Under the pieces are notes generated by a model that had not been told where the DNA came from, did not search any database, and saw only the letters and a list, made by a program, of their open reading frames with translations. 47,073 nucleotides of DNA from Lachnospiraceae bacterium (GTDB lineage: Bacteria; Bacillota; Clostridia; Lachnospirales; Lachnospiraceae), in NCBI GenBank assembly GCA_024695225.1, contig JAILIO010000030.1, positions 1-47,073 on the forward strand, in the 5' to 3' direction. The first letter of the stretch is position 1; every line of letters begins with the position of its first letter. The translations under genes and the position numbers were made by a program. Positions 18,383 to 47,073 of this stretch are shown piece by piece.

Positions 18383-18460
18383 CTCTCACTTCCCGGGATC
18401 CACACCAGAAGATCAGATCTTCTCCCTGCCTGTTTCCATCCGGAAAACCCGCTTTCATCC

Positions 18461-18645
18461 TGCAGGCTTTGTGTCCGAAGATCCGGTTTTCACCCTGCAG
18501 GCTTTGTGTCCGAAGATCCCCGCTTTCACCCTGCAGGCTTTGTGTCCGAAGATCCCCGCTTTCGCCCTGCAGGCTTTGTATCCGAAGATACCCGCTTTCG
18601 CCCTGCAGGCTTTGTATCCGAAGATCCTTGTTTTCACCCTGCAGG
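18461..18645. repeat. 36-bp tandem repeat, about 5 copies, between convergent holA and GerMN genes
   Basis: TGCAGGCTTTGTRTCCGAAGATCC..GCTTTCRCCC with TGCAG at 18461, 18496, 18532, 18568, 18604 and 18640. Confidence 0.95.
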
Positions 18646-30609: not shown

Positions 30610-32694
30610 ATGAAATCCGGAAAAAAAGGGTTGTCGCTACAGGTAAAGATGCTGTTGGTGATCCTGCCCATTGTGATCATCGTGGCAAATGTGATCGCTC
30701 TTGTAAGCGGACTGCTCGCCCAGAATGCCATACTGGAGCAGACATCCCGGTATATGAACGCCGAACTGGCCAAAAATGCCAATGACGTGGATGCGAAACT
30801 TGAATCTGTCCGCATGACCGCAGAAGAGTTGTCAATCTTTGTGGGAAACACCTACAAGACCACCGATATGGCATCCTATGCCAAACTCTTCGGAGATACC
30901 GTAAGATCAAATGACCTGATACTGGGTTCAGGAATCTGGTTTGAACCGTCCGTTTACACAGGTGACAAAAAATATGCCGGTGAAAAATACGTAGGTCCCT
31001 ACTGGTACAGGGACGGCGATAACATCGTGGAAGACTGGGAATATTCAAACGCGGAATACGATTATTTCTCCCAGGAGTATTACACCAATGCCGCCAAGAT
31101 CACAACCCTGAATGCCACCATAACGGATCCCTATTACGATCCCGCCAGCGACTCTGTCATGGCCTCATGTTCTGCCCCGATATTTAACGAAGAAGGCTCC
31201 TACATCGGATGCATAACCGTCGATATGAGCCTGGGAACCATAAGTGACATCATCGGATCCATAAAAGTGGGAACAAACGACAACGCCATCTTATTGACCT
31301 CAGGCGGAGCCTATATATATACGAAGGATCAGGAAAAGGTGGAATCCGGCATGGATATCGCGTCGGACAAAGACAGCATTTCCCAGATCGCCTCCACTGT
31401 ACTGTCCGGTGAAAAGGGCGAGACCTCATACAAGGGTTCTCAGGGACAGATGAATGTATATTACACCACCATCCCGGAAGTTAACTGGAAGCTCATAATA
31501 GAGATGCCTCTTTCGGAAATAAAGGCTCCCGCCATGAATATGACCCGTACCACGGTGCCCATCTGTATCATCGGAGTCATAGTCAGCGTCATCCTGGTCT
31601 TCCTCTTTGCCAGGTCCATCGCAAATCCGGTCAAGAAGGTGGACGAATTCGCAGTTGAGCTTTCAAAGGGCAATTTCTCCGTCGCTCCTCTGGACATCAG
31701 CAGGAACGATGAGATCGGAGAGATGAGCGAATCCTTAAATGAGATGTACGGCAACAACAGCGGTATAATAAAGAAGATCTCAACGGAAGCCACAAATATC
31801 AGCGATGCTTCCTCCACTTTAGGCGCCATGAGCGAAGAACTGGCGGCAGAGTTCTCCAGGATACAGAGCAATGTATCCGCAGTCAACGAGGCAATGATGA
31901 ATTCCAGCGCCGCCACCGAGGAAGTTTCCGCTTCAGTCACTGAGGTAAACACCTCCGTGCAGCAGCTGGCAAGCAGCAGTTCAGAGATAAAGAAAGAAGC
32001 AAAGGAGATCTCATCCAGGGCACGCCAGGTCCAGGAGGACAGCAGGAAAGCCTATGAAAGCGCGATCTCCATAGCAAAAGAGAGAGAGACCGAGATAAAA
32101 GCGGCCACTGCCAAAGCAGAGGTCGTAAATGAGATCAAAAACATGGCCGATGCCATCTCGAATATCGCAAGCGAGATCGATCTCCTTTCACTCAACGCTT
32201 CGATAGAAGCGGCAAGGGCCGGGGAAGCGGGAAGAGGCTTTGCCGTGGTGGCTCAGCAGATAAACAAGCTGGCCACGGATACCGCAGCGGCTGTCAAGCA
32301 GATACAGGACACCGTATCGGACATACAGGGCGCCTTCTCAGACCTTTCCGAGGGTTCAAACAAGCTTCTCAGCTTTGTGACAGACACGGTTACCCCGGAT
32401 TACGACAAATTCACCGGCATCGGAAAGCAGTACGGGGACGATGCAAATCTCTTCGATGACTTTTCCGCCCGCATCCTTGAGATGGCCAATTCCATAAAGA
32501 GCACTATGGACGAGGTCAACTATGCAGTCCAGAACATCGCAGAGAGCACCCAGGATACCGCAGCCCACAGCAGCGATGTAAATGATTCCATTGGCAGCGT
32601 TTCAAACGCCATAGAATCTGTGGCCCAGCTGGCTACAGACCAGCAGTCTACCGCAAGAGAGCTGGCAGAGATCGTGGACAATTTTAAATTCTGA
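30610..32694 (+). CDS. Methyl-accepting chemotaxis protein, Cache-type sensor
   Basis: N-terminal TM; extracellular [29 protein letters not shown]...[15 protein letters not shown]; signalling hairpin [44 protein letters not shown]. Confidence 0.95.
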
Positions 32695-32794
32695 GGCACC
32701 TCCTGAAGCTTGCTCCGGGCCGGCAACTCTCCTGAAGACCGGAACAGGCAGATAAGATCAGGCAAAGGGACGCAGATAAATAAGGACATAATGA

Positions 32795-32826
32795 TATCCC
32801 CCGGATTTGATGATCTCCGGGGGATA
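32795..32826 (+). terminator. Rho-independent terminator of the chemotaxis gene
   Basis: TATCCCCCGGA-N10-TCCGGGGGATA, 11-bp perfect stem; then actgttttt. Confidence 0.85.
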
Positions 32827-32846
32827 ACTGTTTTTCCCTATTTTAA

Positions 32847-32911
32847 TTCCTTATTTGAATTCCTTACTTGAATTCCTTATTTGAATTCCTTATTTGAATT
32901 CCAATTTGTAT
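32847..32911. repeat. 13-bp tandem repeat, 5 copies (TTCCTTATTTGAA)
   Basis: TTCC at 32847, 32860, 32873, 32886 and 32899. Confidence 0.93.
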
Positions 32912-32964
32912 TCCATGCTTGTATGTCTATATCGATCATGAGAGGATCTGAGGTTTCTCTCTGA

Positions 32965-33276
32965 TCAAAGGAGATATGTGGGTATATCGCAGATAAGATT
33001 TGACATGACCCTTACAGTCTCAGGCATGGGGATCATAACGCCGGTATTTACAACAGGCTGCTCCTCTGAAACGGGAGCTTTTTTAGCCTTTCCTGCGGTA
33101 TCTGCCGCCGTCTTTTTAACTGCTGCCTTCCCGGATGCTTTTGCGGAAGCCCCGGCTGCAGGCTTTGACGCTGCCTTTGCTGCAACCGCCTTTGCAGCAG
33201 GCTTTGCGCTCTCTGATGCGGTCTTTTTGCTTTTGGATCCCGAAACCCTCTTTATGCTTTCCTTTCCTACTGACAT
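32965..33276 (-). CDS. Small Ala/Lys-rich, histone H1-like basic protein; candidate ParA partner
   Basis: MSVGKESIKRVSGSKSKKTASESAKPAAKAVAAKAASKPAAGASAKASGKAAVKKTAADTAGKAKKAPVSEEQPVVNTGVMIPMPETVRVMSNLICDIPTYLL; ATG overlaps the parA stop; SD AAGGAGG. Confidence 0.75.
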   Translation of the reverse strand: MSVGKESIKRVSGSKSKKTASESAKPAAKAVAAKAASKPAAGASAKASGKAAVKKTAADTAGKAKKAPVSEEQPVVNTGVMIPMPETVRVMSNLICDIPTYLL

Positions 33277-34052
33277 AATCCATCTACCTCCTTTGCAAGC
33301 TGCATGTATTCCTTTGCGCTTCTTGATGATCTTTTGTATTTTACAACAGTGCTGCTGGCGTCCTGCGCCCACTCCACAGAACTGTCCACATGGATCACAC
33401 TTTCAAACACATGGATCTCATCCAGTTCTGAAAGAGTCTCGCGCATCTGTTTGTAATAATTTTTTCTCTCATCCGCCTTTGTGACCACGATGCCCAGTAT
33501 ATCCAGTCCGGGAGCGATCTCCTGCACTCTTCCTATGAAATCGGTCATATTCGCCAGCCCGAAAAGTCCCCAGGGCGTGGCTTCCACCGGGATCATCACC
33601 CGGTCTGACGCAATGAGTATGTTCATCACCCAATTCCCCAAAGTGGGTGGCGCATCTATCAGTATATAATCGTAATCGCCGCTGTCCTTCACTTTCTTAA
33701 GCAGCCTTGAGAGCAAAAATTCCCGTCTGATCTTCGTAAAAAGATCCATTTCTATGGATGTCAAAAGAGTGGATGCAGGGATCACGTCTATATTTTCGTC
33801 ATCTGTCTTTCTTATGTATGAGGAAAGATCCTCTTCTTTTACGATTGCTTCGTAAACTGTCCTTCCGCTCTCTGCAAACTCAAGCACATCGTCCTCACCG
33901 AAGAAAGAAAGCGTGAGGTTCATCTGCATATCCCCGTCTATCAGCAGGACTTTTCTGCCCATAAGCGACAGAGCGGAGCCTGTGTTTGCGCAGGTTGTGG
34001 TCTTTCCGCTGCCCCCTTTATTGTTGGCAAAACAGATAACGCAGGTTCCCAT
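33267..34052 (-). CDS. ParA/MinD-family ATPase
   Basis: CFANNKGGSGKTTTCANTGSALSLMGRKVLLIDGDMQMNLT (deviant Walker A); YDYILIDAPPTLGNWVMNILIASDRVMIPVEATPWGLFGLANM. Confidence 0.92.
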   Translation of the reverse strand: MGTCVICFANNKGGSGKTTTCANTGSALSLMGRKVLLIDGDMQMNLTLSFFGEDDVLEFAESGRTVYEAIVKEEDLSSYIRKTDDENIDVIPASTLLTSIEMDLFTKIRREFLLSRLLKKVKDSGDYDYILIDAPPTLGNWVMNILIASDRVMIPVEATPWGLFGLANMTDFIGRVQEIAPGLDILGIVVTKADERKNYYKQMRETLSELDEIHVFESVIHVDSSVEWAQDASSTVVKYKRSSRSAKEYMQLAKEVDGLCQ

Positions 34053-34053
34053 A

Positions 34054-34833
34054 TCACTTAACCTCCGGACAGACAACCCTGATCCTGTATCTGTCAAAGA
34101 GTTCCATCCACATATCGCCGGGCTTCTGATCGGTCACAATAGTGTCCAGTTCTTTCAGATCGCACACCTTTGAAAAACCGATGCTGTTAAATTTTGAGGA
34201 ATCCGCAGTGAGTATCCTGGTCCTGGAGGAATACATCATTGCCAGTTTTGTCTCGGCAAAAAATGCATTGCCCTCCGTGATACCACGTTTGGGATCTATT
34301 CCTTTACAGGAAAAAAATGACTTCTCCACGTTGTAGGAGGAAATGCCGTCTATGGACTGGGGCCCCACCAGAGCAAGATACCCCCCTTTAAGTGTGCCTC
34401 CGGAGGAGATCACATTCCAGCCCTCTATATCCGAGAGTTCAAGCAGTATCTCTATGGAGTTTGTCACGATCGTCAGGTCTTTCTTTTTATTTTTAAGCGC
34501 CTTTGCGATGAATACCGCTGTGGAACTGGCATCCAGCATGAGGAAGTCTCCGTCTTCAACCATGTCTGCCACCAGGCGCGCTATGATCTGTTTTCCGGGA
34601 ATATTTCTCTTCCTTCTGACATTAAAAGGAAGATCGAGATCTATGTTCAATCCTTCATTGACAATAGCGCCGCCATAGCTCTTCTTTGCAATGCCGTCTT
34701 TGTCCAGACGCTCCAGGTCTCTTCTGATGGTCTCTTCAGAGACCTTAAAGGTGGTGGCCAGATCGCTGACGACCACCCGCCTGTCTTCCTGGAGCTTTTC
34801 AATGATCCGGTTTCTGCGTTCTATCGCAAGCAT
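34054..34833 (-). CDS. DeoR-family transcriptional regulator
   Basis: MLAIERRNRIIEKLQEDRRVVVSDLATTFKVSEETIRRDLERLDKDGIAKKSYGGAIVN; ATG at 34833 preceded by AAGGAGAAGGAG. Confidence 0.93.
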   Translation of the reverse strand: MLAIERRNRIIEKLQEDRRVVVSDLATTFKVSEETIRRDLERLDKDGIAKKSYGGAIVNEGLNIDLDLPFNVRRKRNIPGKQIIARLVADMVEDGDFLMLDASSTAVFIAKALKNKKKDLTIVTNSIEILLELSDIEGWNVISSGGTLKGGYLALVGPQSIDGISSYNVEKSFFSCKGIDPKRGITEGNAFFAETKLAMMYSSRTRILTADSSKFNSIGFSKVCDLKELDTIVTDQKPGDMWMELFDRYRIRVVCPEVK

Positions 34834-34874: not shown

Positions 34875-35423
34875 TCAAAGCACCGACCTTATTATCTGAG
34901 GATCAGGGTTTGGTATGACGGTGCTGTCCAAGTACATCCCCCCGTCCTGGATCTGGGTTTTGGCCTTATTTATGGCTTCCGTACAGGCCGCTACCTCACC
35001 GGTTATCACAAAAAATGATTTTCCGCACATGCCCTTTGCGATCCTGAGTTCGATCAGATCCACAATTGCAGTCTTTGCAGCCATATCAGCCGCCACGATG
35101 GCAGAAGCCGCATCGTATGTCTCGAATATTCCGAGAGCATTCACTTCCTTTACGTCAGATGAGCCATATATGGCAGGGAATATGGATTCGTGGGGATTCC
35201 CAAGCACAAAACTGTCTATGCAGTGTCCTCCCGGATCCCTTACAGCGCTTTCCACCGCAGTGTTTACGGCGCTGAGATTTCCTGCGATAAGGGCAATGTA
35301 TTTGCCCGGGCACACGGTCTGGGCCTCCAAAAGCTGTACCTCCGCAGTCTTCACCATCCTGTCCGCGGCCAGGATCCCCGAGGGTGTGGTATTAAATTCT
35401 ATGAGACCAATGGCTCTGTTCAT
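34875..35423 (-). CDS. pduT: BMC shell protein with two BMC domains (PduT-like BMC-T)
   Basis: AIGLIEFNTTPSGILAADRMVKTAEVQLLEAQTVCPGKYIALIAGNLSAV...ALGIFETYDAASAIVAADMAAKTAIVDLIELRIAKGMCGKSFFVITGEVAACTEAI. Confidence 0.92.
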   Translation of the reverse strand: MNRAIGLIEFNTTPSGILAADRMVKTAEVQLLEAQTVCPGKYIALIAGNLSAVNTAVESAVRDPGGHCIDSFVLGNPHESIFPAIYGSSDVKEVNALGIFETYDAASAIVAADMAAKTAIVDLIELRIAKGMCGKSFFVITGEVAACTEAINKAKTQIQDGGMYLDSTVIPNPDPQIIRSVL

Positions 35424-35597: not shown

Positions 35598-36926
35598 TCA
35601 TCTGTCCTCGATCACCACATGGGACTGTGTCACTTCAGAGACCACCCCGTCAATGGAAGCGTGAATGGGAACGGAAAGACCCTGTCCGGGTTCCGCCACC
35701 TTCTGTCCTCTCCTGACTCTGTCTCCTGTCTTCACACAGGCAACCGCCGGCGCGCCTATATGCTGGCTCAGTCTGATCACCACCCGGCCTGACTTCTGAA
35801 CACTTTCATCCATGGGGGCAGGGAGATCGTAATCCGTGAGCCCCAGTCTTGCAGTCAGCCTTCCTTCCTGAGCTCTCCTGTATTCCCTGTCCTGATTTAC
35901 GGGGCGGGGTTTGATGCCTTTCTCGGGTTTGATCCCGTTGCTCCTGAGCCCGTTCTTGCAGGCAGCTATCAGTGTCCTGGGGGAAAGCCCCTGGGGACAG
36001 GCATACAATTCGCAGGTCCCACAGGATGAGCAGAAAAATGTGTCCATAAACACGCTGGTATCCTGAACATCCATATTGGCTGCGCTTCTCATAAATTTGT
36101 GAGGTTCTATGGGATGTCCCAGCAGATAACGGGGACACATATCCGTACAGGTCCTGCACTGACAGCACACGGACGCGGCCCTCTTCATATCTATGGCCAC
36201 CCCCGCAGTCATCTTAAGGATAAGCTTGTGATCCGAAGGCAGGATAAGTAAAGCATTGGTGGTCTTTGTCACAGGATCCTCCGGTTTTCCGATCCGTCCC
36301 ATCATGGGACCGCCAACCAGATACACCGGATCTTTGGTGGTGATGTTTCCTGCCCTGGACACCACATCGGAAAGCTTCATGCCAAGGGGAACTCTCACCG
36401 TCACCGGGTGTTCCACCTCGCCCACCACAGTCACCAGTTTGTCTACAACCGGCGTCTTTTCCTGCATGGCCCTGTATACGTTGTAGACCGTTTCCACGTT
36501 GAATACCACAACGCCCTGCTCAATGGGGAGACCTCCGGGGTTTACCACCCTTCCGGTGGTCTCGTAAATAAGGACCACCTCGTCACCCTGAGGATAAGCT
36601 CCGGGAAGCTTGTGTACGGACAATTTGGGATACCGGCCTATGCATCCCTCCACACATCTGAGGGTCTCTTTGTAATCAGCCTTTATCCCTATTATGCCCC
36701 GCTCAGCCCCGAGAGTATCGGCAATGAGACTGAAGGTGCCCAGTATCTCATCTGCGTGAACTGCCAAAAGCTGCCTGTGGAGTTTGAGCAGAGGCTCGCA
36801 CTCCGCGCAGTTCAGCAAAATCGTGTCAGCACGGCTGTCCAGTTTGGCATATGTGGGGAATCCGGCTCCGCCGGCGCCCACTACGCCATTCTCTTTGATT
36901 ATATTTGTCAGTTCTTTTATATCCAT
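35598..36926 (-). CDS. pduS: PduS-like RnfC-related Fe-S/flavin oxidoreductase
   Basis: NGVVGAGGAGFPTYAKLDSRADTILLNCAECEPLL; CCQCRTCTDMCPRYLLGHPIEPH; CSSCGTCELYACPQGLSP. Confidence 0.92.
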   Translation of the reverse strand: MDIKELTNIIKENGVVGAGGAGFPTYAKLDSRADTILLNCAECEPLLKLHRQLLAVHADEILGTFSLIADTLGAERGIIGIKADYKETLRCVEGCIGRYPKLSVHKLPGAYPQGDEVVLIYETTGRVVNPGGLPIEQGVVVFNVETVYNVYRAMQEKTPVVDKLVTVVGEVEHPVTVRVPLGMKLSDVVSRAGNITTKDPVYLVGGPMMGRIGKPEDPVTKTTNALLILPSDHKLILKMTAGVAIDMKRAASVCCQCRTCTDMCPRYLLGHPIEPHKFMRSAANMDVQDTSVFMDTFFCSSCGTCELYACPQGLSPRTLIAACKNGLRSNGIKPEKGIKPRPVNQDREYRRAQEGRLTARLGLTDYDLPAPMDESVQKSGRVVIRLSQHIGAPAVACVKTGDRVRRGQKVAEPGQGLSVPIHASIDGVVSEVTQSHVVIEDR

Positions 36927-37204
36927 TATTTAAGCCTTGTCAGGAATTCGTTTTCTTCATCAACGATTCCCACTATTGCCGCATCCACCGGCGAATCGCC
37001 GGAGCCGGACCCGATCCTGGCTGAGCTGCCTGTTGCCACCAGCACAGTCTCTCCTATTCCGGCTCCTATATTATCGATCGCAACCAGACATCCCGAGTTC
37101 ATCTTCATGATGGGAAGTGGTTCCACGATCATGAATTTATTACCCACAAGGTTCTGGCTCTTTCTGGTTGATATAAGGCTTCCTATAACTTTTCCGACGA
37201 TCAT
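36926..37204 (-). CDS. BMC vertex protein, EutN/CcmL family (BMC-P)
   Basis: MIVGKVIGSLISTRKSQNLVGNKFMIVEPL...LVAIDNIGAGIGETVLVATGSSAR. Confidence 0.95.
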   Translation of the reverse strand: MIVGKVIGSLISTRKSQNLVGNKFMIVEPLPIMKMNSGCLVAIDNIGAGIGETVLVATGSSARIGSGSGDSPVDAAIVGIVDEENEFLTRLK

Positions 37205-37223: not shown

Positions 37224-37883
37224 TCAGCCGCAGATACTGTTATTTACGATCACACAGGTATCACCCTGCTTTATGCCTGCCGCATTGGCTTCGTCCGTGT
37301 CTATATGCATCTCCAGAGTAAACTCCGGGCTGACACGGATCTTGCATTTGTTGAACACTGTGCCTCGTTCGTTTTCAACTCTCACCGAAACATAGTCGCC
37401 ATCGTGGACGCCTGCCGCCTGAGCGTCTGCAGGAGACATGTGTATGTGACGCGCAGCCACGATACAGCCTTCCTTCAGATAAAGCGCTCCCTTAGGTCCA
37501 ACAAGTGCTATAGGGGCTGACCCTGCAGTATCTCCCGACTCCCGCAGCGGCGCTTTGACCCCGAGTTTTATGGCATCTGTTGCCGAGATCTCCACCTGGG
37601 AAGTTTTTCTCACAGGTCCCAGGATCCTGACATTCTCTATGGCTCTCAGTTTCAGGCCTACGATGGTGACCATTTCGTTTGACGCGAACTGACCACCCAT
37701 CAGGTCTTTTTTCTTGGTGAGCTGATAACCCGGGCCATAAAGCACTTCCAGATCACTCTGGGTCAGATGGATATGCCTTGCCGATACACCGATCGGCACG
37801 ACATATCCGCTGCTCTGCTCAGATGCCTCCGATATCGTCTCCGCGACGAGCCTTGTAATAAGTTCTATCTCATCTCTGTTCAA
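37224..37883 (-). CDS. pduL: Phosphate propanoyltransferase PduL with N-terminal encapsulation-peptide-like helix
   Basis: MNRDEIELITRLVAETISEASEQ; VPIGVSARHIHLTQSDLEVLYGPGYQLTKKKDLMGGQFASNE; VAARHIHMSPADA. Confidence 0.95.
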   Translation of the reverse strand: MNRDEIELITRLVAETISEASEQSSGYVVPIGVSARHIHLTQSDLEVLYGPGYQLTKKKDLMGGQFASNEMVTIVGLKLRAIENVRILGPVRKTSQVEISATDAIKLGVKAPLRESGDTAGSAPIALVGPKGALYLKEGCIVAARHIHMSPADAQAAGVHDGDYVSVRVENERGTVFNKCKIRVSPEFTLEMHIDTDEANAAGIKQGDTCVIVNNSICG

Positions 37884-37898
37884 GACTTATGCCCCTTT

Positions 37899-38177
37899 TT
37901 ATTTTACCTTCGGAAGGATCATTTCCACATCATTGTGAGGACGAGGAATAACGTGCTGTGCCACCAGCTCTCCAAGCCTTCCTGCTGCCTCTCCGCCTGC
38001 CTCAACTGCTGACTTGACTGCGCCCACATCTCCGCGGACCATAACGGTCACCAGTCCGGAACCGATCTTCTCTGAGCCGATGAGCGTGACATTAGCTGCC
38101 TTGCACATCTGGTCAGCCGCCTCGATAGATGCGACAAGTCCTCTGGTCTCAACCAATCCTAAAGCTTCCTGTGTCAT
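37899..38177 (-). CDS. BMC-H shell protein (PduA/CcmK-like)
   Basis: [61 protein letters not shown]. Confidence 0.96.
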
Positions 38178-38306: not shown

Positions 38307-38687
38307 CTATACTGTGTACAGATAGCTCTGATCCTGATCGCCATCGGACTCTTCTCCTGAACTTCCCTTGTTCCCGGAATCTGCCAGGTATTCCTTCCAC
38401 TGTTTTTCCCAGCGGCTGCGGCTGACCTTCACAAGCTTTGCGATCTCATCGTGGGGATTTGCCATAACTCCGGTGGATACCGGCTTCTTCACCGCCTTTG
38501 ACGCCGCATTTTCGATGGCCTCAGTACAGGCCGCCACCTCACCGCTTATGATAATAGTCACAAGCCTGCCGCCCAGTTTCCGTTCCCAGCTTTCAAAACT
38601 GACCCCGGCTGTTTTCAGCATTATATCCAATGCATCAACGGCGGCTGTCACACCCGTTATTTCCAGAAATCCGTATGCTCTGTCCAT
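38307..38687 (-). CDS. BMC-H-domain shell protein with C-terminal extension
   Basis: MDRAYGFLEITGVTAAVDALDIMLKTAGVSFESWERKLGGRLVTIIISGEVAACTEAIENA plus tail SRSRWEKQWKEYLADSGNKGSSGEESDGDQDQSYLYTV. Confidence 0.9.
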   Translation of the reverse strand: MDRAYGFLEITGVTAAVDALDIMLKTAGVSFESWERKLGGRLVTIIISGEVAACTEAIENAASKAVKKPVSTGVMANPHDEIAKLVKVSRSRWEKQWKEYLADSGNKGSSGEESDGDQDQSYLYTV

Positions 38688-38716: not shown

Positions 38717-38992
38717 TTATACTGTGGGAAGTATCTTTTCAACGTCTTCATGAGGCCTGGGTATCACATGGGATGCCACCAGCTCTCCCAGCCTGGATGC
38801 ATTGGATGCCCCTGCTTCAACAGAAGCCTTGACAGCTCCCACATCGCCTCTCACCATGACAGTCACCAGTCCGGAACCTATCTTCTCGGTTCCGATGAGT
38901 CTGACCTCTGCGGCCTTTGTCATGGCATCGGCTGCCTCAACTGCTGCAGTCAATCCCCTGGTTTCGATCAAACCTAAAGCTTCGTATGACAT
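38717..38992 (-). CDS. BMC-H shell protein, close paralogue of 37899-38177
   Basis: [61 protein letters not shown]. Confidence 0.96.
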
Positions 38993-39009
38993 AATTTTCC
39001 TCCGTTTCC

Positions 39010-39327
39010 TCACCGCTTATCAAAAGCGGAGATCTTCAACATCTTCACTGTATCATCCGTCGGGCTCGGGATAATGAACTTCTGTACCCAGCCCGTCATG
39101 GCTTCCGCTTTCCTGACTGCAGCATCCATGGCCTCTGTCACATCCGCCACACTTCCCCTGAATTTCACCATCACCAGAAGGGGAACGGGAAGTTCGTCAG
39201 GATTCTTGGGTTTATTTTTGTCGAAGGGTTCAAGCCATACATTCCCTGCTTTGCAGCCTGCATCAGCACACATAAAGGCAGTCACAAGGCCGTAAACCTC
39301 CAACATTCCAACCGCTTCGTTGTTCAT
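39010..39327 (-). CDS. Divergent BMC-H-domain shell protein
   Basis: [74 protein letters not shown]. Confidence 0.88.
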
Positions 39328-39328
39328 A

Positions 39329-40549
39329 TCAGTTTCCGTTTGCCATCACGGCTATCTTAAGGCCCTTCTGAGAAAGGTTCATCTCCAGAGCCTCATTTAT
39401 CTGTTCAAGGGGATACTTGTGGGTGATGAGCTCAGTCACCGGAAGCCCTATGGCCTTTGCTCTCTTCAGGAACTCAAAGGTGTTCACATAATCTCTCAGC
39501 GTGTATACCCATGAGCCCACAAGGGTTATCTCCTTGGAGCACATATCAAAATGAGGGTTGATGGTGGCATCTCCGCCGTTTACGAAGAATCCAAGTTCGC
39601 AAAGCCCGCCGCCGTTCCTTATGAACTTGTAGATATTGCTGTGGGCCTTGGGATTGCCGGTACACTGGAATGCGAAGTCTGCCAGATGTCCGCCGAATGC
39701 GTTCTTCACCCCGGCAGTCAGTTCTTCGATGCCGTTGGGATAATCCGCAAAGTTAACTGTGTTGTCTGCTCCGAGCCTCTTTGCAAAATCAAGTCTTGCG
39801 GGATTTCCGTCCACAGCCACTATGTTGTTCACGCCCATGGTGCGGAGAACAGCTATGCACAGGAGGCCTATGGGGCCGCAGCCCTGCACGCACACGCGGC
39901 TGGCAAATCTCAGGATGCCTGTGGATTTTGCTCTCTCAACAGCGTGAATGAGAACTGCTGCGGGTTCGATCAGTATCCTGGAATCCAGATCCATGTCGCT
40001 TACGTTAAATATGGTGGATCCCTTTCTCACGAAGATGTAATCCGAGAACCATCCGTTCAGATGATTGTCATCGTCAGGCAAAAGCCCGTATACATCTGCA
40101 TCGCCGACATTCTGTTTGTTGAGATCATAAACCGTTATCTCCGGATCGTCGTGGAAGATCATGCAAGTGACAACCTTATCGCCTATATGCAGATCTTTTC
40201 CGGCGCTGTCCTTTTTAACATCCTTTCCCATGGCCACTATGGTTCCCGTGCCCTCATGTCCGAGAGCCACGGGGATGAGTCCGAAGGGATCTCTGGAATA
40301 CTCATGGGCATCCGTTCCGCAGACCCCGCAGCCTTCAACCTTAACCAGGATATCTCCATCTCCAACGGGAGGTATGGGATACTCCTTTACATCGAAGTGC
40401 TTAAGGGATGTAAGGAAAGCAACATGAGCGGTTTTCGGTATGCTTCCGGCTGTGGGAGCTGCGGCAGGTTGTGAATATGAACCCACACTGCCGTCAGACA
40501 TTGCCGACAATACCTGTTTTACGATTTCTTCAATATTTGACTGATCCAT
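39329..40549 (-). CDS. Zinc-type alcohol dehydrogenase with N-terminal encapsulation peptide
   Basis: N-terminal MDQSNIEEIVKQVLSAMSDG plus linker; GCGVCGTDAHEYSRDPFGLIPVALGHEGTG; CVQGCGPIGLLCI. Confidence 0.93.
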   Translation of the reverse strand: MDQSNIEEIVKQVLSAMSDGSVGSYSQPAAAPTAGSIPKTAHVAFLTSLKHFDVKEYPIPPVGDGDILVKVEGCGVCGTDAHEYSRDPFGLIPVALGHEGTGTIVAMGKDVKKDSAGKDLHIGDKVVTCMIFHDDPEITVYDLNKQNVGDADVYGLLPDDDNHLNGWFSDYIFVRKGSTIFNVSDMDLDSRILIEPAAVLIHAVERAKSTGILRFASRVCVQGCGPIGLLCIAVLRTMGVNNIVAVDGNPARLDFAKRLGADNTVNFADYPNGIEELTAGVKNAFGGHLADFAFQCTGNPKAHSNIYKFIRNGGGLCELGFFVNGGDATINPHFDMCSKEITLVGSWVYTLRDYVNTFEFLKRAKAIGLPVTELITHKYPLEQINEALEMNLSQKGLKIAVMANGN

Positions 40550-40634: not shown

Positions 40635-42026
40635 TCATCTGATACAGAGATAATCCTGCATTACGCATCTTCTCTTCTTTGTAAATGTCTTGGCGCTGGT
40701 CAGGCCTTCGCCCGTCCTGCTGGCTATGGTGAAGGTGCAGATGCTCTCGCCTCCAAAACCAAGGGCTGCATAACTGGGGCCGTTCTTAACGATTATGGCT
40801 GTGTCTATGGCTCTGGCATATCTTGTGATATGATCCACATTTTTTGAGTGGATGTGGGCACTGTGCCTGTTTCCATGCTCAAGCCACACGGCAGTCTTCA
40901 GCCCCTCTTCGAAGTCCCTGACTCTCACAAGCCCCAGGATAGGCATCATCAGTTCCGTGGTGATGAGGGGATGTTCCTTCTCGCCCTCAAAAACTATGCA
41001 GCGGATATTGTCCGGTACATCCACGCCAACCATGGAGAGAAGTTTCTTTGCGCTTCTTCCGACACACTTGCGGTTAAGCCTTCCCTTTTCATCCATGACC
41101 GTAGCAGAAAGCTTGTCCTGGACTTCCTTGGGCGCCAGGTAACAGTTCTGTTCCGCTATCATGTGATGCATAAGTTCATCCGCAACACTGTCCACACACA
41201 CGATCTCTTTTTCCGCTATGCAGGGCAGATTGTTGTCAAAGGTACAGCCGTTTACGATATCCTGGGCGGCCTTGGCAATGTCTGCAGTCTCATCGACAAG
41301 CGCGGGCGGATTTCCTGCTCCTGCGCCGATGGCTCTCTTACCGGATGAAAGGACGGCGGTCACAACTCCGGGTCCTCCTGTAGCCACCAGTAACTGAATA
41401 TCAGGCGACTTCATCATCACCGAGCTGGTGTCAAGGGTGGGCACTTCCACGGTACAGGCTATATTGTCAGGTCCCCCTGCCTCAAGTGAGCACTTATTTA
41501 CCATATCGATGGTGAATATGGTGGTCTTGACTGCGTTGGGGTGGGGGTTGAACACCACCGAATTCCCTCCGGCCAGCATTCCCATGGTATTGCAAAGCAC
41601 TGTTTCACTGGGATTTGTGGCGGGGGTTATGGCGCCGATAACGCCAAAGGGTCCCATCTCCACCAGGGTGAGTCCTCTGTCACCTGAAACCGCCTCTGTT
41701 GTAATGTCTTCGGTGCCGGGAACTTTATCCGCCACCAGGAGATGCTTCAGGATCTTGTCCCCCACATTCCCCATTCCTGTCTCATCAACTCCCATGCGGG
41801 CTATGATCTCCGCATTTTCACGGGTGGCTTTTCTTATGTTTGAAATGATCTTTTCCCTCTGATCCAGGGTCATATCGCGGATCACTTTCTGGGCTTTTTT
41901 TGAAGCAGCGATGGCTTCCTCCATGGTCCCAAACACACCATGCATACCCTGGGAAGCTCCGTCTATCTGCATTCTGGCCATGACCTCCTGAACCACGTTC
42001 CGGACCATGCTCTCATTTAACTCCAT
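40635..42026 (-). CDS. pduP: CoA-acylating propionaldehyde dehydrogenase (PduP-like) with N-terminal encapsulation peptide
   Basis: MELNESMVRNVVQEVMARMQIDG; VIGAITPATNPSETVLCNTMGMLAGGNSVVFNPHP; DNNLPCIAEKEIVCVD; TIASRTGEGLTSAKTFT. Confidence 0.95.
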   Translation of the reverse strand: MELNESMVRNVVQEVMARMQIDGASQGMHGVFGTMEEAIAASKKAQKVIRDMTLDQREKIISNIRKATRENAEIIARMGVDETGMGNVGDKILKHLLVADKVPGTEDITTEAVSGDRGLTLVEMGPFGVIGAITPATNPSETVLCNTMGMLAGGNSVVFNPHPNAVKTTIFTIDMVNKCSLEAGGPDNIACTVEVPTLDTSSVMMKSPDIQLLVATGGPGVVTAVLSSGKRAIGAGAGNPPALVDETADIAKAAQDIVNGCTFDNNLPCIAEKEIVCVDSVADELMHHMIAEQNCYLAPKEVQDKLSATVMDEKGRLNRKCVGRSAKKLLSMVGVDVPDNIRCIVFEGEKEHPLITTELMMPILGLVRVRDFEEGLKTAVWLEHGNRHSAHIHSKNVDHITRYARAIDTAIIVKNGPSYAALGFGGESICTFTIASRTGEGLTSAKTFTKKRRCVMQDYLCIR

Positions 42027-42120: not shown

Positions 42121-42975
42121 TTATTTGCCAAGTCTCTCAAGAACCTTCTTTGTGATCTCTGCGATCACCTCAGGGCTCTGGGCTCTGTTGTCCACTGTCA
42201 TATCGGTGCTGCCGTGAACGCTGAGGCTGTTCTCGGGCATTCCCGGGATATGTGAAGAACATGCGCCTCCGCAGTTATGGCAATTGAGTCCGTCCTTGTT
42301 AAGGCACAGATTTGCGGGATGTTTGCCGGCAAGTCCCATCTTCCTTCTGATCTCGTACAGCTTTTCAACAGTGGCCTTGTCAAATTCCTTGGGGCCGCCC
42401 AGCTGCTTTGACTGATACAGAAGCTGTGCATAGAATTCCACGGATTCCATCTTCATATATGCGGCGAGAAGGTCTGTAGACCAGGTCAGAGCGCCATGGC
42501 TCTCCAGAAGAACTGCGTCATAGTAGGGCAGGTATTTTTCAAGCCTGTCAGGTATCTCGTTTGTGGAAGGTGTGCCGTACTCGGCGATGGGCACACAGCC
42601 GAGGGCTATGACTGCTTCAGGCATAATGGGCTGTGTGAGAGGGATACCCGCTATGGCAAAGCTGGTGGCATAAACGGGATGCGCATGGACCACAGAGCCG
42701 ACATCGGGTCTCTTCTGATACACTCTCATATGCATCTTTATCTCAGATGAGGGCTTGAAGCCTTTGTTAGCCTGGATCACGTTTCCGTTCTCATCAACCT
42801 TGCAGATGTAATCAGGGGTCATGAAGCCCTTGGATACGCCTGTGGGTGTGCAGAGGAACTCGTGATCGTTAAGCTTTACGGAAATGTTTCCATCGTTTGC
42901 CGCGACCATGTTCCTGTTGTAGATCCTCTTTCCGATGTCGCAGATCTGTTTTTTGATCTCATACTCGTTTACCAT
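42121..42975 (-). CDS. fucA: Class II aldolase (fuculose/rhamnulose-phosphate type) with Cys-rich segment and C-terminal encapsulation-peptide-like helix
   Basis: KQICDIGKRIYNRNMVAANDGNISVKLNDHEFLCTPTGVSKGFM; VVHAHPVYATSFAIAG; LLESHGAL; tail CLNKDGLNCHNCGGAC...SPEVIAEITKKVLERLGK. Confidence 0.93.
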   Translation of the reverse strand: MVNEYEIKKQICDIGKRIYNRNMVAANDGNISVKLNDHEFLCTPTGVSKGFMTPDYICKVDENGNVIQANKGFKPSSEIKMHMRVYQKRPDVGSVVHAHPVYATSFAIAGIPLTQPIMPEAVIALGCVPIAEYGTPSTNEIPDRLEKYLPYYDAVLLESHGALTWSTDLLAAYMKMESVEFYAQLLYQSKQLGGPKEFDKATVEKLYEIRRKMGLAGKHPANLCLNKDGLNCHNCGGACSSHIPGMPENSLSVHGSTDMTVDNRAQSPEVIAEITKKVLERLGK

Positions 42976-43096: not shown

Positions 43097-43927
43097 TCAG
43101 CCTCCCAGAACACATTCCAGGCCGGATGCTTCCTCGGCCACTTTTCTCAGCATCCTCATCTGCTCTCCGTCCGGAAGTTCTGTATCTCCCATGGGGTAAG
43201 CCCTGTTGAGCCCGGTGTATTTGTCACTGCCGAGTCTGTGATATGGAAGAAGATGAATCCTCTTCACATGACTGAGGCTCCCTGCGAATTCAGCGATATC
43301 CCTTATCTCTTCAGGGGTAGCGTTGAAGGTCGGTATGGTGGGCACCCTTACGCTGAGTTCAACCCCCGGGTAGTCTGCTATCTTCCTCGCGTTCTCAAGG
43401 ACCAGTTCGTTGCCCGCCCCGATAAACTCTTTGTGCTTCCCGGAGTTTATGTGTTTTATATCCATAAGGAACTGATCGATATAGGGAAGCAGGCTCTCCA
43501 CCGTCTCCCATTTGGCAAACCCGGTGCTCTCCACCGCAGTGGTTATACCCGCATCCTTGGCAGCCATCAGAAGGCATCTTGCAAAGTCAGGCTGGAAAAG
43601 CATTTCTCCCCCCGAAAGAGTGAGACCGCCGCCGGATCTGCGGTAGTAATCCCTGTCTTTCTCCACAGTCTCCATCACTTCCCTGACCGTCACATCCTGT
43701 CCCATGATCTTAGGTTTACCTGCAACCATAAGCGTCTCTATCTCATGGCTCTGGGATTCGGGATTGCAACACCAGCGGCATCTGAAAAAGCAGCCCTTCA
43801 GAAACACTATGGTCCTTATGCCGGCGCCGTCATGGATGGAATAGCGCTGTATATCAAATATCCGTCCGGTTTTGTTCAGGCATTCCTCAGATAGCACTTG
43901 TCTGCTCCGTTCTGGATATGATGTCAT
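43097..43927 (-). CDS. Glycyl radical enzyme activating enzyme (radical SAM); start may be GTG at 43897
   Basis: DIQRYSIHDGAGIRTIVFLKGCFFRCRWCCNPESQSHE; GGGLTLSGGEMLFQPDFA; VPTIPTFN. Confidence 0.94.
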   Translation of the reverse strand: MTSYPERSRQVLSEECLNKTGRIFDIQRYSIHDGAGIRTIVFLKGCFFRCRWCCNPESQSHEIETLMVAGKPKIMGQDVTVREVMETVEKDRDYYRRSGGGLTLSGGEMLFQPDFARCLLMAAKDAGITTAVESTGFAKWETVESLLPYIDQFLMDIKHINSGKHKEFIGAGNELVLENARKIADYPGVELSVRVPTIPTFNATPEEIRDIAEFAGSLSHVKRIHLLPYHRLGSDKYTGLNRAYPMGDTELPDGEQMRMLRKVAEEASGLECVLGG

Positions 43928-46418
43928 CCTGCAGCGATCTTGAAAGTGTTGTAAAAAGCGCGCTGTATCCGGCGACCCTCACCACCAGATGCTGGTAGTT
44001 TTCAGGATGTTTCTGGGCATCCAGAAGAGTTTCCCTGGACACGACGTTGAACTGCATATGCATGCCCTTCTGATCAAAATAAGAACGGATAAGAGCCACG
44101 AAATCATCCAGAGCCTTGGTGCCGGAAAGAGCCGAAGGATGGAATTTCTGATTGAACAGGGTTCCGTTGGAGCAGATCCCGTGGTCCAGCTTCGCCACCG
44201 AGTTGCAGGCAGCGGTGGGACCGTGAGTGTCAGTGCCCACATAGGGCGAAACTCCATCCGCCACAGGGGTATGGGCAAGTCTTCCGTCCGGAGTCGCCCC
44301 TGTCTGGGCTCCAAGAGGAACATTTGCAGATACGGGATACATACCCGCCTGGAAGATACCGCCTCTGGGATTCCTGTAATTCTGTACAGGTTTTGAATAT
44401 GTGTAGGCGGCTTCTCTTGCAAATTCATCCACTTCATCGATGTCATTTCCAAACTTGGGAAGATCCAGGATCATCTGCCGGATCTCTTTATACCTGTTTC
44501 TCACATCTTCAGGCAATTCCATGGACGCCACTGTGGCGATGACCTGAGGCAGATCCTTTTCGCTCACCTCTCTCCCCTGTGCCTTCATCTCTGCGATGGA
44601 TTCTATTGCCAGATCCGTGATACTCTGCTCGTCAAGAGGTTCTCCGAAGTTCATCTTGAGAGCATTTTTAAGTTCTCTCATGGTGACCTTCTTTTCGTCA
44701 AATACAAGTTTTTTCACGGCGTAAAGGGCATTTCCCACATTTGCTATGCCAAAACCCTGAGGCCCCGTGAAGTTGTAATGAGCGCCTCCCTGTTCGATGG
44801 CTTTGCCGTTCTTCATACAGTCAGACACCATGCCCGAAGCATAGGGGTCGGGATTTAACTTTCCATGGGCCACATCTATGGAGTTATCTGCGTTGACCAG
44901 AAGGGTTATCATATAATCCATCTGCTTTTTGTAGGCCTCAAAGAATTCTTCGTAGGTCTGCATGTTTTCAACTTCTCCGGTCTGTATGGATATGCGCTCA
45001 CCAAGGTCGTAGCCGTTTGAGAACACAAGTTCAAGAGGTCTGCACATGTTAAAGAAGGCCGCGTCATGCCACCCGAAGGTCTTTCCGGGCACAGAGGGCT
45101 CCACGCATCCGATTATGCTGTAATCCCTCGCGTCCTCAAGAGTCACTCCCCTGTTCATCATAGCGGGGATAATAACCTCATCGTTATACCAGGCAGGAAG
45201 TCCGATACCTGTGCGAGTCAGATCCGCAGCCCTGACCAGAAGGTCATGGGGAGATCCGTTCCACACCCTTATGGAAAGCGAAGGCATGGGAAGGAAAACA
45301 TGCTTGCTTGCAGTTATGCACATGAAAGAGATATCGTTTGTCACATCTCTGCCTTCCTTGTCCTGGCCGCCCACTATCAGGTTCTGGAAGAGGGAATATC
45401 CCGCAAATCCCTTTGCCGACTGCTCATCCCTGCATTTGTTTAAGTCGTTCAACTTCACCCAGATGCAGTCGATAAGTTCCTGGGCAAAATCCCGGGTGAT
45501 GGCATTGTCATCCATGTCTTTTTTGTAGAAAGGATACATATACTGATCAAATCTTCCGGGTGATATGCTGTGTCCACTGGATTCAAGCTGCAGCAGCTGC
45601 TGTATGAACCAGAAGCACTGGCATGCTTCCCAGAAATTCTTCGCCCCTTTTGCCGGAGCAGTCCTGCAGTTTGAGGCTATCCTTTGCAGTTCTTCTTTTC
45701 TCTTGGGATCGCTTTCTTTTCCGGCCTCCTGCTCCGCCAGATCAGCATATCTTCCGGCATAGTCGATGGCAGCCTGATAATCGATGATCATGGCTTTCAA
45801 AAGGGCGCTCTTCTCAGCGCAGTCAGAATCACCGGCATTGCATTTTGAAAGTTCCTCTGCCGCCTCTCTGATAAGCCCTTCGTATCCACAGGTGATCACA
45901 CGGCCGTAATCCACGGTATAATGGCCTATGCCGTTGAAATAATAATTTCCCGCAGTGAATATATTGTGCTCCTGAGCCTTTCTGGTTTCGGGAGTCATAT
46001 AGTTTTCGGCCAGTTCGCTGGAGGTCCTTCCCTTCCAGTATTTATCTGCTTCTTTTATCTCTTCAGCAGTCTTTTTTGAGATATAAAAAGGATCCGCCTC
46101 ACGTTTTTCAACTGTGTCGAATTCTTTTTCCAGCCATTCATAAGAGAATTCCGGATAGGTCTGGCATCCTCTGGGGGCTATGGTGGTGGAACCCACTATA
46201 AGCTCCTCAGGTCTTATGATTATGGGGATGTTTTTAAGGATATGGGAAAAAGCCAGAGCCCTTCTGATGGTCTGAGGCTGACCTTCCGATGCCTTGTAGG
46301 ATTCGGTGATGAGTTTTGCCCTGGCAGATTCTATCTCGGGCATTTTAGCAAAAAGATGTTTGACCATGCGTGGTATACGCTCTGATCTGGGTATCTCGGG
46401 CACGTAATAATCAGCCAT
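43887..46418 (-). CDS. Glycyl radical propanediol/glycerol dehydratase
   Basis: DYSIIGCVEPSVPGKTFGWHDAAFFN (active-site Cys region); RVAGYSALFTTLSRSLQDDII (glycyl radical loop); ATG at 46418 with GGAGGAG SD. Confidence 0.94.
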   Translation of the reverse strand: MADYYVPEIPRSERIPRMVKHLFAKMPEIESARAKLITESYKASEGQPQTIRRALAFSHILKNIPIIIRPEELIVGSTTIAPRGCQTYPEFSYEWLEKEFDTVEKREADPFYISKKTAEEIKEADKYWKGRTSSELAENYMTPETRKAQEHNIFTAGNYYFNGIGHYTVDYGRVITCGYEGLIREAAEELSKCNAGDSDCAEKSALLKAMIIDYQAAIDYAGRYADLAEQEAGKESDPKRKEELQRIASNCRTAPAKGAKNFWEACQCFWFIQQLLQLESSGHSISPGRFDQYMYPFYKKDMDDNAITRDFAQELIDCIWVKLNDLNKCRDEQSAKGFAGYSLFQNLIVGGQDKEGRDVTNDISFMCITASKHVFLPMPSLSIRVWNGSPHDLLVRAADLTRTGIGLPAWYNDEVIIPAMMNRGVTLEDARDYSIIGCVEPSVPGKTFGWHDAAFFNMCRPLELVFSNGYDLGERISIQTGEVENMQTYEEFFEAYKKQMDYMITLLVNADNSIDVAHGKLNPDPYASGMVSDCMKNGKAIEQGGAHYNFTGPQGFGIANVGNALYAVKKLVFDEKKVTMRELKNALKMNFGEPLDEQSITDLAIESIAEMKAQGREVSEKDLPQVIATVASMELPEDVRNRYKEIRQMILDLPKFGNDIDEVDEFAREAAYTYSKPVQNYRNPRGGIFQAGMYPVSANVPLGAQTGATPDGRLAHTPVADGVSPYVGTDTHGPTAACNSVAKLDHGICSNGTLFNQKFHPSALSGTKALDDFVALIRSYFDQKGMHMQFNVVSRETLLDAQKHPENYQHLVVRVAGYSALFTTLSRSLQDDIISRTEQTSAI

Positions 46419-46458
46419 GATCTCCTCCAAACTGGAAATAATTGTTGTTTCTTGCACG

Positions 46459-46487
46459 ATTCTATGTCTTTTGGCCCCTTTTGTCAA
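46459..46487 (-). promoter_or_regulatory. Sigma70-type promoter of the BMC operon
   Basis: Minus strand TTGACA-N17-TAGAAT, 41 nt upstream of the GRE ATG. Confidence 0.85.
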
Positions 46488-46594
46488 GCATAAAACAAGT
46501 ATTTTTGTGGTTTATTTTTGTTTTTTGGGAAATTTTTGTTGTTTTTTGTTTGTTTTCCTTGACACATCTTATCAGAGAAGGGATAATCTATCTC

Positions 46595-47073
46595 ATGACG
46601 ACATTTGACATCCACACCCACTCCGTTTCCAGCGGACACGGGACAAAAGATACGGTTTCCGACATGTTGAGAGAAGCTTCGCGAAGGGGCTTGCACACTC
46701 TCGGCATTTCCGAGCATGGGCCGGCCATTCTGAACGCTCCAAAGCCGTCCTATTTCAGGAGTCTGTCCTTTGCTCCGCGCAAACGCTTCGGAATCCGGGT
46801 GCTGTACGGAGCAGAAGTTAATATACTGGACGGAGGCAAACTTGATCTCGAAGATGATATCCTTTCCGGGCTCGACTATGTGATAGCCTCCATGCATCAT
46901 CCCTCTCACAGATACGGCGACAGGGTTTCAAACACCGATGATTACATCAAAGCTATGAGCGACGATAATGTCAGAATACTTGGGCATTGCGACAATACAC
47001 AGTTTCCTGTGGATTATGACGCGATCGTCAGTTCTGCGAAACAATATTCCGTGATAGTTGAGATAAACGAAAG
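46595..47073 (+). CDS. PHP-domain phosphatase/hydrolase (truncated at window edge)
   Basis: MTTFDIHTHSVSSGHGTKDTVSDMLREASRRGLHTLGISEHGP...YGAEVNILDGG...VIASMHHPSH; upstream AGAAGGGA. Confidence 0.88.
   Translation, partial: MTTFDIHTHSVSSGHGTKDTVSDMLREASRRGLHTLGISEHGPAILNAPKPSYFRSLSFAPRKRFGIRVLYGAEVNILDGGKLDLEDDILSGLDYVIASMHHPSHRYGDRVSNTDDYIKAMSDDNVRILGHCDNTQFPVDYDAIVSSAKQYSVIVEINE

Follow-up and report, generated by a model that had tools for sequence, protein, structure and literature searches.

A ParA gene and a small basic gene at the end of a GRM5-type operon

The window, i.e., the whole stretch of 47,073 nucleotides analyzed, is contig C22 of a Lachnospiraceae assembly in 300 contigs, and carries an operon for a sugar-fermenting bacterial microcompartment (BMC) on its minus strand. 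In order of transcription, this operon encodes a glycyl radical enzyme of the diol/glycerol dehydratase family (43887–46487), a glycyl radical enzyme activase (43097–43927), a class II aldolase with the GRM5 signature (42121–42975), a CoA-acylating aldehyde dehydrogenase (40635–42026), a Zn-type alcohol dehydrogenase (39329–40549), a 105-residue BMC-domain shell protein (39010–39327), a BMC-H shell protein (38717–39013), a 126-residue BMC-domain shell protein (38307–38687), a further BMC-H protein (37899–38177), a PduL-type phosphotransacylase (37224–37883), a BMC-P vertex protein of the EutN/CcmL type (36926–37204), a PduS-like flavin/Fe-S oxidoreductase (35598–36926), a PduT-like BMC-T shell protein with two BMC domains (34875–35423) and a DeoR-family regulator (34054–34833). 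With five BMC-domain proteins, the operon contains all that defines a GRM5 locus (PMC4207490), i.e., glycyl radical enzyme, class II aldolase, shell, aldehyde and alcohol dehydrogenases, PduL, PduS and DeoR. An ORF of 141 residues (46484–46909), which immediately precedes the glycyl radical enzyme gene, has no NCBIfam or significant Pfam match. Elsewhere in the window, a 36-base unit is repeated in tandem 5.5 times at positions 18448–18645, with 91% matches.

Two further minus-strand genes close the operon, as a sequence-only reading of this DNA had proposed with correct coordinates: parA (33267–34052, 261 residues) and a K/A-rich gene of 103 residues (32965–33276), hereafter the adaptor gene. 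The parA start codon (ATG, 34052) lies 1 nt from the deoR stop (34054–34056), the parA stop (33267–33269) lies within the adaptor gene, which starts with ATG at 33276 and overlaps parA by 10 nt, and the adaptor gene has a Shine-Dalgarno sequence, AAGGAGG, at 33287–33293 on the same strand, all in agreement with that reading. The overlap of pduT with deoR that it had also described is true only of the longest deoR ORF, which begins at an unlikely TTG; from the likely ATG at 34833, the two genes are separated by a gap of about 40 nt.

The ParA matches Pfam AAA_31 (E = 5e-51), contains the deviant Walker A motif that had been claimed for it (NNKGGSGKT) and carries the PWGLFGL and VDSSxEWAQD signatures of a BMC-associated ParA clade. 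Searches of the 103-residue adaptor against Pfam and NCBIfam gave no match. In the Pfam searches overall, hits to HC2 and Big_3_2 fell below the cut-off and were disregarded. The adaptor consists of a basic head, MSVGKESIKRVS (33241–33276, minus strand), corresponding to the family consensus MxVGKGSIxRA and a candidate for ParA binding, a K/A/S-rich disordered linker, and a hydrophobic C-terminal block, PMPETVRVMSNLICDIPTYLL (32968–33033, minus strand), a candidate for binding the shell as cargo, of which the last six residues match [LIM]PxYLL. A predicted model of this protein, of low confidence, is unstructured except for a short helix at residues 86–95. Because the pair with its conserved ends recurs in other genera, it represents more than a chance arrangement. 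The host genus has just one other genome, and comparison of the 22 tail codons between the window and this congener gave dN 0.06 and dS 0.70; both the adaptor tail and the ParA are under purifying selection. Past the adaptor gene lies a GC-rich hairpin that is a possible terminator (32778–32843, strand unassigned). A tandem array of the 13-base unit TTCCTTATTTGAA (32834–32914, 6.3 copies) is located between the adaptor gene and a methyl-accepting chemotaxis receptor gene (30610–32694), which is convergent with the BMC operon.

Phylogeny, distribution and genomic placement of the ParA

The survey for relatives of the ParA covered 249 genomes of Lachnospiraceae, at approximately one genome for each genus, and counted as members those with E <= 1e-40. 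The clade was found in 28 genomes at identities of 55–74%, the weakest match having 55–56% identity and 290 bits. A class-level search of 338 genomes added two members (57–58% identity), both from one other family, and beyond the clade the class-level matches dropped to 34–39% identity and 155 bits; a phylum-wide sample yielded zero extra members, and a scan of the genome contigs with the ParA returned one relative only. In a maximum-likelihood tree, the 30 clade ParAs stood apart from a Soj-type ParA of the host genome and from other class-level ParAs with support of 100/100, i.e., Soj lies outside the clade. At about 38 positions, the clade has a fixed residue that differs from the Soj-type set, e.g., NNKGGSGK vs NQKGGVGK, PWGLFGL vs YYALEGL, and VDSSxEWAQ vs IPRNVRLAEAP. 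The Walker A motif NNKGGSGK[ST]T with K12 and K17, including the signature lysine, and the Walker B residue D133 are conserved across all 30 members. Compared to solved structures, the ParA scored 81–117 bits against ParA/Soj and 49 bits against McdA other than the alpha type. A fold search with the predicted ParA, an AlphaFold model (two sequences, modest pLDDT of 65) used for fold class only, placed Soj/ParA at the top and McdA at rank 23. By sequence and predicted fold, the clade ParA is nearer to Soj-type ParA than to solved McdA; it may work like McdA, which does not imply identity as McdA.

BMC-domain proteins are encoded in 74 of the 249 Lachnospiraceae genomes and EutN/CcmL in 73. Every ParA-positive genome was BMC-positive (28/28; hypergeometric p = 2.3e-17, calculated with no species tree, so that shared ancestry could inflate the significance), and both ParA-positive genomes outside Lachnospiraceae encode BMC proteins too. 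In the samples searched, the clade is restricted to BMC genomes, and the prediction that the ParA would accompany BMC loci and be absent from BMC-less relatives was upheld. Its expected tie to GRM5 stood in part. The ParA is commoner with GRM5, being present in 24 of 48 GRM5-positive genomes vs 4 of 26 other BMC-positive genomes (p = 0.003, which shared ancestry could likewise inflate in significance), and three of the four GRM5-negative ParA genomes could be GRM5 genomes fragmented across contigs; however, the tie is not exclusive, one copy lying beside an ethanolamine (EUT) operon. Twelve genomes match the GRM5 aldolase but are BMC-negative, and none of these carried the ParA. A BMC can do without the ParA, which is missing from half of the GRM5-positive genomes.

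Linkage of the ParA to BMC operons is recurrent. It lies 3′ of the GRM5 operon, after deoR, in the window and at four other loci (L044, L045, L046, and L052), and on the 5′ side of the operon, i.e., that of the glycyl radical enzyme, at L039, L042, L063, and L065, with L060 at a distance of 6 kb. In the EUT case (L050:9275-18583), the ParA-adaptor pair is divergent from an operon with eutA, eutB, and eutL, not GRM5. Overall, 12 of the 28 ParAs either have shell genes within 20 kb or form a contiguous stretch with genes of a BMC operon; for the remaining 16, no shell genes were detected within 20 kb, though BMCs are present in those genomes. The ParA is in or beside the rhamnose genes rhaA, rhaB, and rhaM at L043, L058, and L060, and an AraC-type gene adjoins it in four or five relatives. 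At 10 loci outside the GRM5 operon (L047, L048, L053, L056, and L057 among them), a lactaldehyde-reductase-like Fe-type alcohol dehydrogenase was seen near the ParA-adaptor genes.

Adaptor ends, ParB-like adaptors and a partner-less subclade

An adaptor gene overlaps or abuts the parA stop at 21 of the 28 loci in the family, and at one of the two outside it. The adaptors range from 76 to 198 residues, a more than twofold spread, and share a head (MxVGKGSIxRA), a K/A/P/E-rich middle that varies freely and a tail ([LIM]Px[YHF]L[LFM]). Alignment showed a conserved basic head at the N-terminus; positions covered by the regular expressions are conserved in part by construction, from which the partner list, being defined by adjacency, is free. 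The head and tail motifs were confined, in 528 neighbouring genes, to the gene adjoining the clade ParA, and when the 249 genomes were scanned for the head with a degenerate DNA pattern, 16 genuine genes were recovered, each beside a clade ParA. Seven genomes had head-motif matches at a distance from ParA, which were rejected: two are GlgC-type fragments by appearance, one is another protein and the rest are chance matches. In the 21 aligned tails (20 family members and L081), position –3 is Y or F in 18 and His in three, position –7 is D or E in 14, and none has a Trp in the last six residues.

Three partners contain a ParB_N domain by Pfam (E = 1e-13, 6e-10, and 6e-9): those at L051:10336-10866 (L016:2276-2806) and L061:10418-10963 (L026:2270-2815) in the family, and at L081:10392-11015 in the other family. 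These adaptor orthologues retain the GxxRxxA box and end where the ENIQR motif, helix-turn-helix (HTH), and C-terminal domain of Spo0J start; in all three, the ENIQR P-motif, the HTH, and the C-terminal dimerisation domain are absent. The earlier statement that no ParB is visible holds for the window, where the partner is without ParB domains and no complete parB is adjacent, but not for these three orthologous partners. In BLAST, the L051 and L061 partners are mutual best matches and the L081 partner matches those two best, scores to which the shared heads and tails add. The three are dispersed over different branches of the ParA tree, a pattern compatible with ancestral presence and several losses of ParB_N, though the domain may instead have been gained repeatedly. 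The Spo0J proteins of these genomes start with MAVKRNGLGKGL, resembling the adaptor head, and the ParB_N adaptors may represent a stage between ParB and the BMC adaptors. We tentatively suggest, as a scenario somewhat short of even odds, that the BMC adaptors arose from ParB by keeping the ParA-binding head, losing the parS-binding HTH and the dimer domain and gaining a shell-binding tail, and that most later lost ParB_N, yielding a portable cassette for GRM5 and EUT loci.

No partner was detectable for seven ParAs in the family and one outside. The seven (L039, L043, L058, L059, L060, L062, and L065) form one subclade (support 86/94), and the ParA of G323 likewise has no adjacent adaptor. A tailed ParB was sought elsewhere in the partner-less genomes and not found. 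That subclade at least, therefore, uses another adaptor or works differently. Several of its members have genes for rhamnose catabolism and an AraC-type regulator as neighbours.

A positioning model, its alternatives and known systems

We consider it likely that ParA and adaptor together position bacterial microcompartments in an ATP-driven manner. In such a system, ParA-ATP dimers would coat the nucleoid, the basic head of the adaptor (MxVGKGSIxRA) would bind ParA and trigger ATP hydrolysis and release, and the tail ([LIM]PxYLL) would dock onto the BMC shell, with the K/A-rich disordered linker joining the two and perhaps contacting DNA itself. Shells would then track the ParA gradient, and so would be spaced on the nucleoid and shared among daughter cells through a diffusion ratchet, as in McdAB. 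The anatomy of the adaptor, i.e., a basic N-terminus and a C-terminal aromatic residue, matches that of McdB, which we count in favour of positioning. The sequence-only reading had proposed an McdAB-like service to the microcompartment; the survey strengthens this through a BMC-only clade that is separate from Soj in the tree and has no complete parB or parS adjacent, and qualifies it in that the ParA is nearer to Soj than to McdA, is not confined to GRM5 and includes a subclade without partners.

The position of the clade ParA nearest to Soj-type proteins, together with ParB_N in three partners, would also suit a remnant of a plasmid or chromosomal ParABS system left beside BMC genes by accident, its ParB having degenerated from a parS-binding protein. 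We judge this quite improbable: no parS-like 16-mer is present in the window, as had been noted before (searched with TGTTTCACGTGAAACA, <=3 mismatches, and thus for that parS type only), the ParB_N partners are devoid of the ENIQR P-motif, HTH, and C-terminal dimer domain, another ParA/ParB pair is encoded at C255 of the host genome, the best match in a plasmid collection is just 42% identical, the clade is limited to BMC-positive genomes, and tail and ParA are under purifying selection.

Several copies in rhamnose operons or by an Fe-type alcohol dehydrogenase, not shell genes, raise the question of whether the pair positions or scaffolds a non-shell cargo, such as a pathway enzyme cluster or a precursor condensate in rhamnose/fucose metabolism, in cells that make BMCs. 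The one copy in an EUT setting comes with different enzymes, which leaves the shell as the common denominator, and the ParA occurs in none of the 12 BMC-negative genomes with an aldolase homologue; a non-shell cargo is accordingly unlikely. Co-option of the ParA as a transcription regulator, acting with DeoR or AraC while the small gene encodes a nucleoid-associated basic protein, appears very improbable. It is favoured by the adjacent deoR in the window and the AraC-type gene adjacent in four or five relatives, but the neighbouring regulator changes between loci, many loci have none adjacent, the conserved tail would be left without a role, and the anatomy of the partner is like that of ParB/McdB adaptors. 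Under the positioning reading, the clade and the two short conserved adaptor ends make the placement and inheritance of metabolosomes directly testable in gut anaerobes, the short ends offer peptide tags for shell anchoring, and the ParB_N adaptors suggest a route from DNA-segregation parts to organelle-segregation parts.

McdAB (maintenance of carboxysome distribution), known from S. elongatus and H. neapolitanus, consists of a ParA-type ATPase and a small adaptor linked to BMC operons (PMC6328274, PMC12204374, PMC11321042); McdB binds McdA through its N-terminal 20 residues, with Lys7 (PMC12204374), and the carboxysome through an aromatic motif at the C-terminus (PMC11321042). The pair described here resembles it in the ParA-type ATPase, the small adaptor directly after it, the basic N-terminus, the C-terminal aromatic residue and the BMC link, and differs in not being linked to carboxysomes, in a ParA closer to Soj and in the ParB_N of some adaptors. 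Carboxysome McdB has an invariant C-terminal Trp motif, whereas the adaptor has [LIM]PxYLL instead. With Soj/Spo0J, the system shares the ParA fold, an adaptor head similar to the N-terminal GLGKGL box of Spo0J and ParB_N in three partners, and differs from it in being without HTH, parS, and dimer domain and in the approximately 38 clade-specific ParA positions. PduV/EutP, a Ras-like GTPase of PDU, EUT, and GRM1 loci with a proposed positioning role (PMC4207490, PMC8262871), is likewise an NTPase of BMC loci but belongs to an unrelated family; a P-loop protein similar to PduV/EutP is present in some ParA loci, so both can coexist.

Linkage of ParA domains to BMCs was pointed out in 2014 (PMC4207490) and taken up again in 2021 (PMC8262871), and ParA is not among the GRM5 ancillary genes in the 2014 text (PMC4207490). 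For Salmonella Pdu compartments, neither ParA nor MinD has an effect (PMC12866334). Putative McdB-like proteins that have Y or F among their final five residues are described near GRM and PDU loci (PMC11321042, Fig. 4, referring to MacCready et al. 2020). Compared with the parts of that description available to us, the adaptor is alike in its Y/F within the last five residues, a nearby acidic residue and its proximity to GRM loci, and is probably of the same kind; those parts make no mention of ParB_N versions, the head motif, co-occurrence statistics or EUT linkage. McdB-like proteins by GRM and PDU loci had been reported before, and the strict co-occurrence, the modular adaptor, its ParB-containing versions and the EUT-linked case are new.
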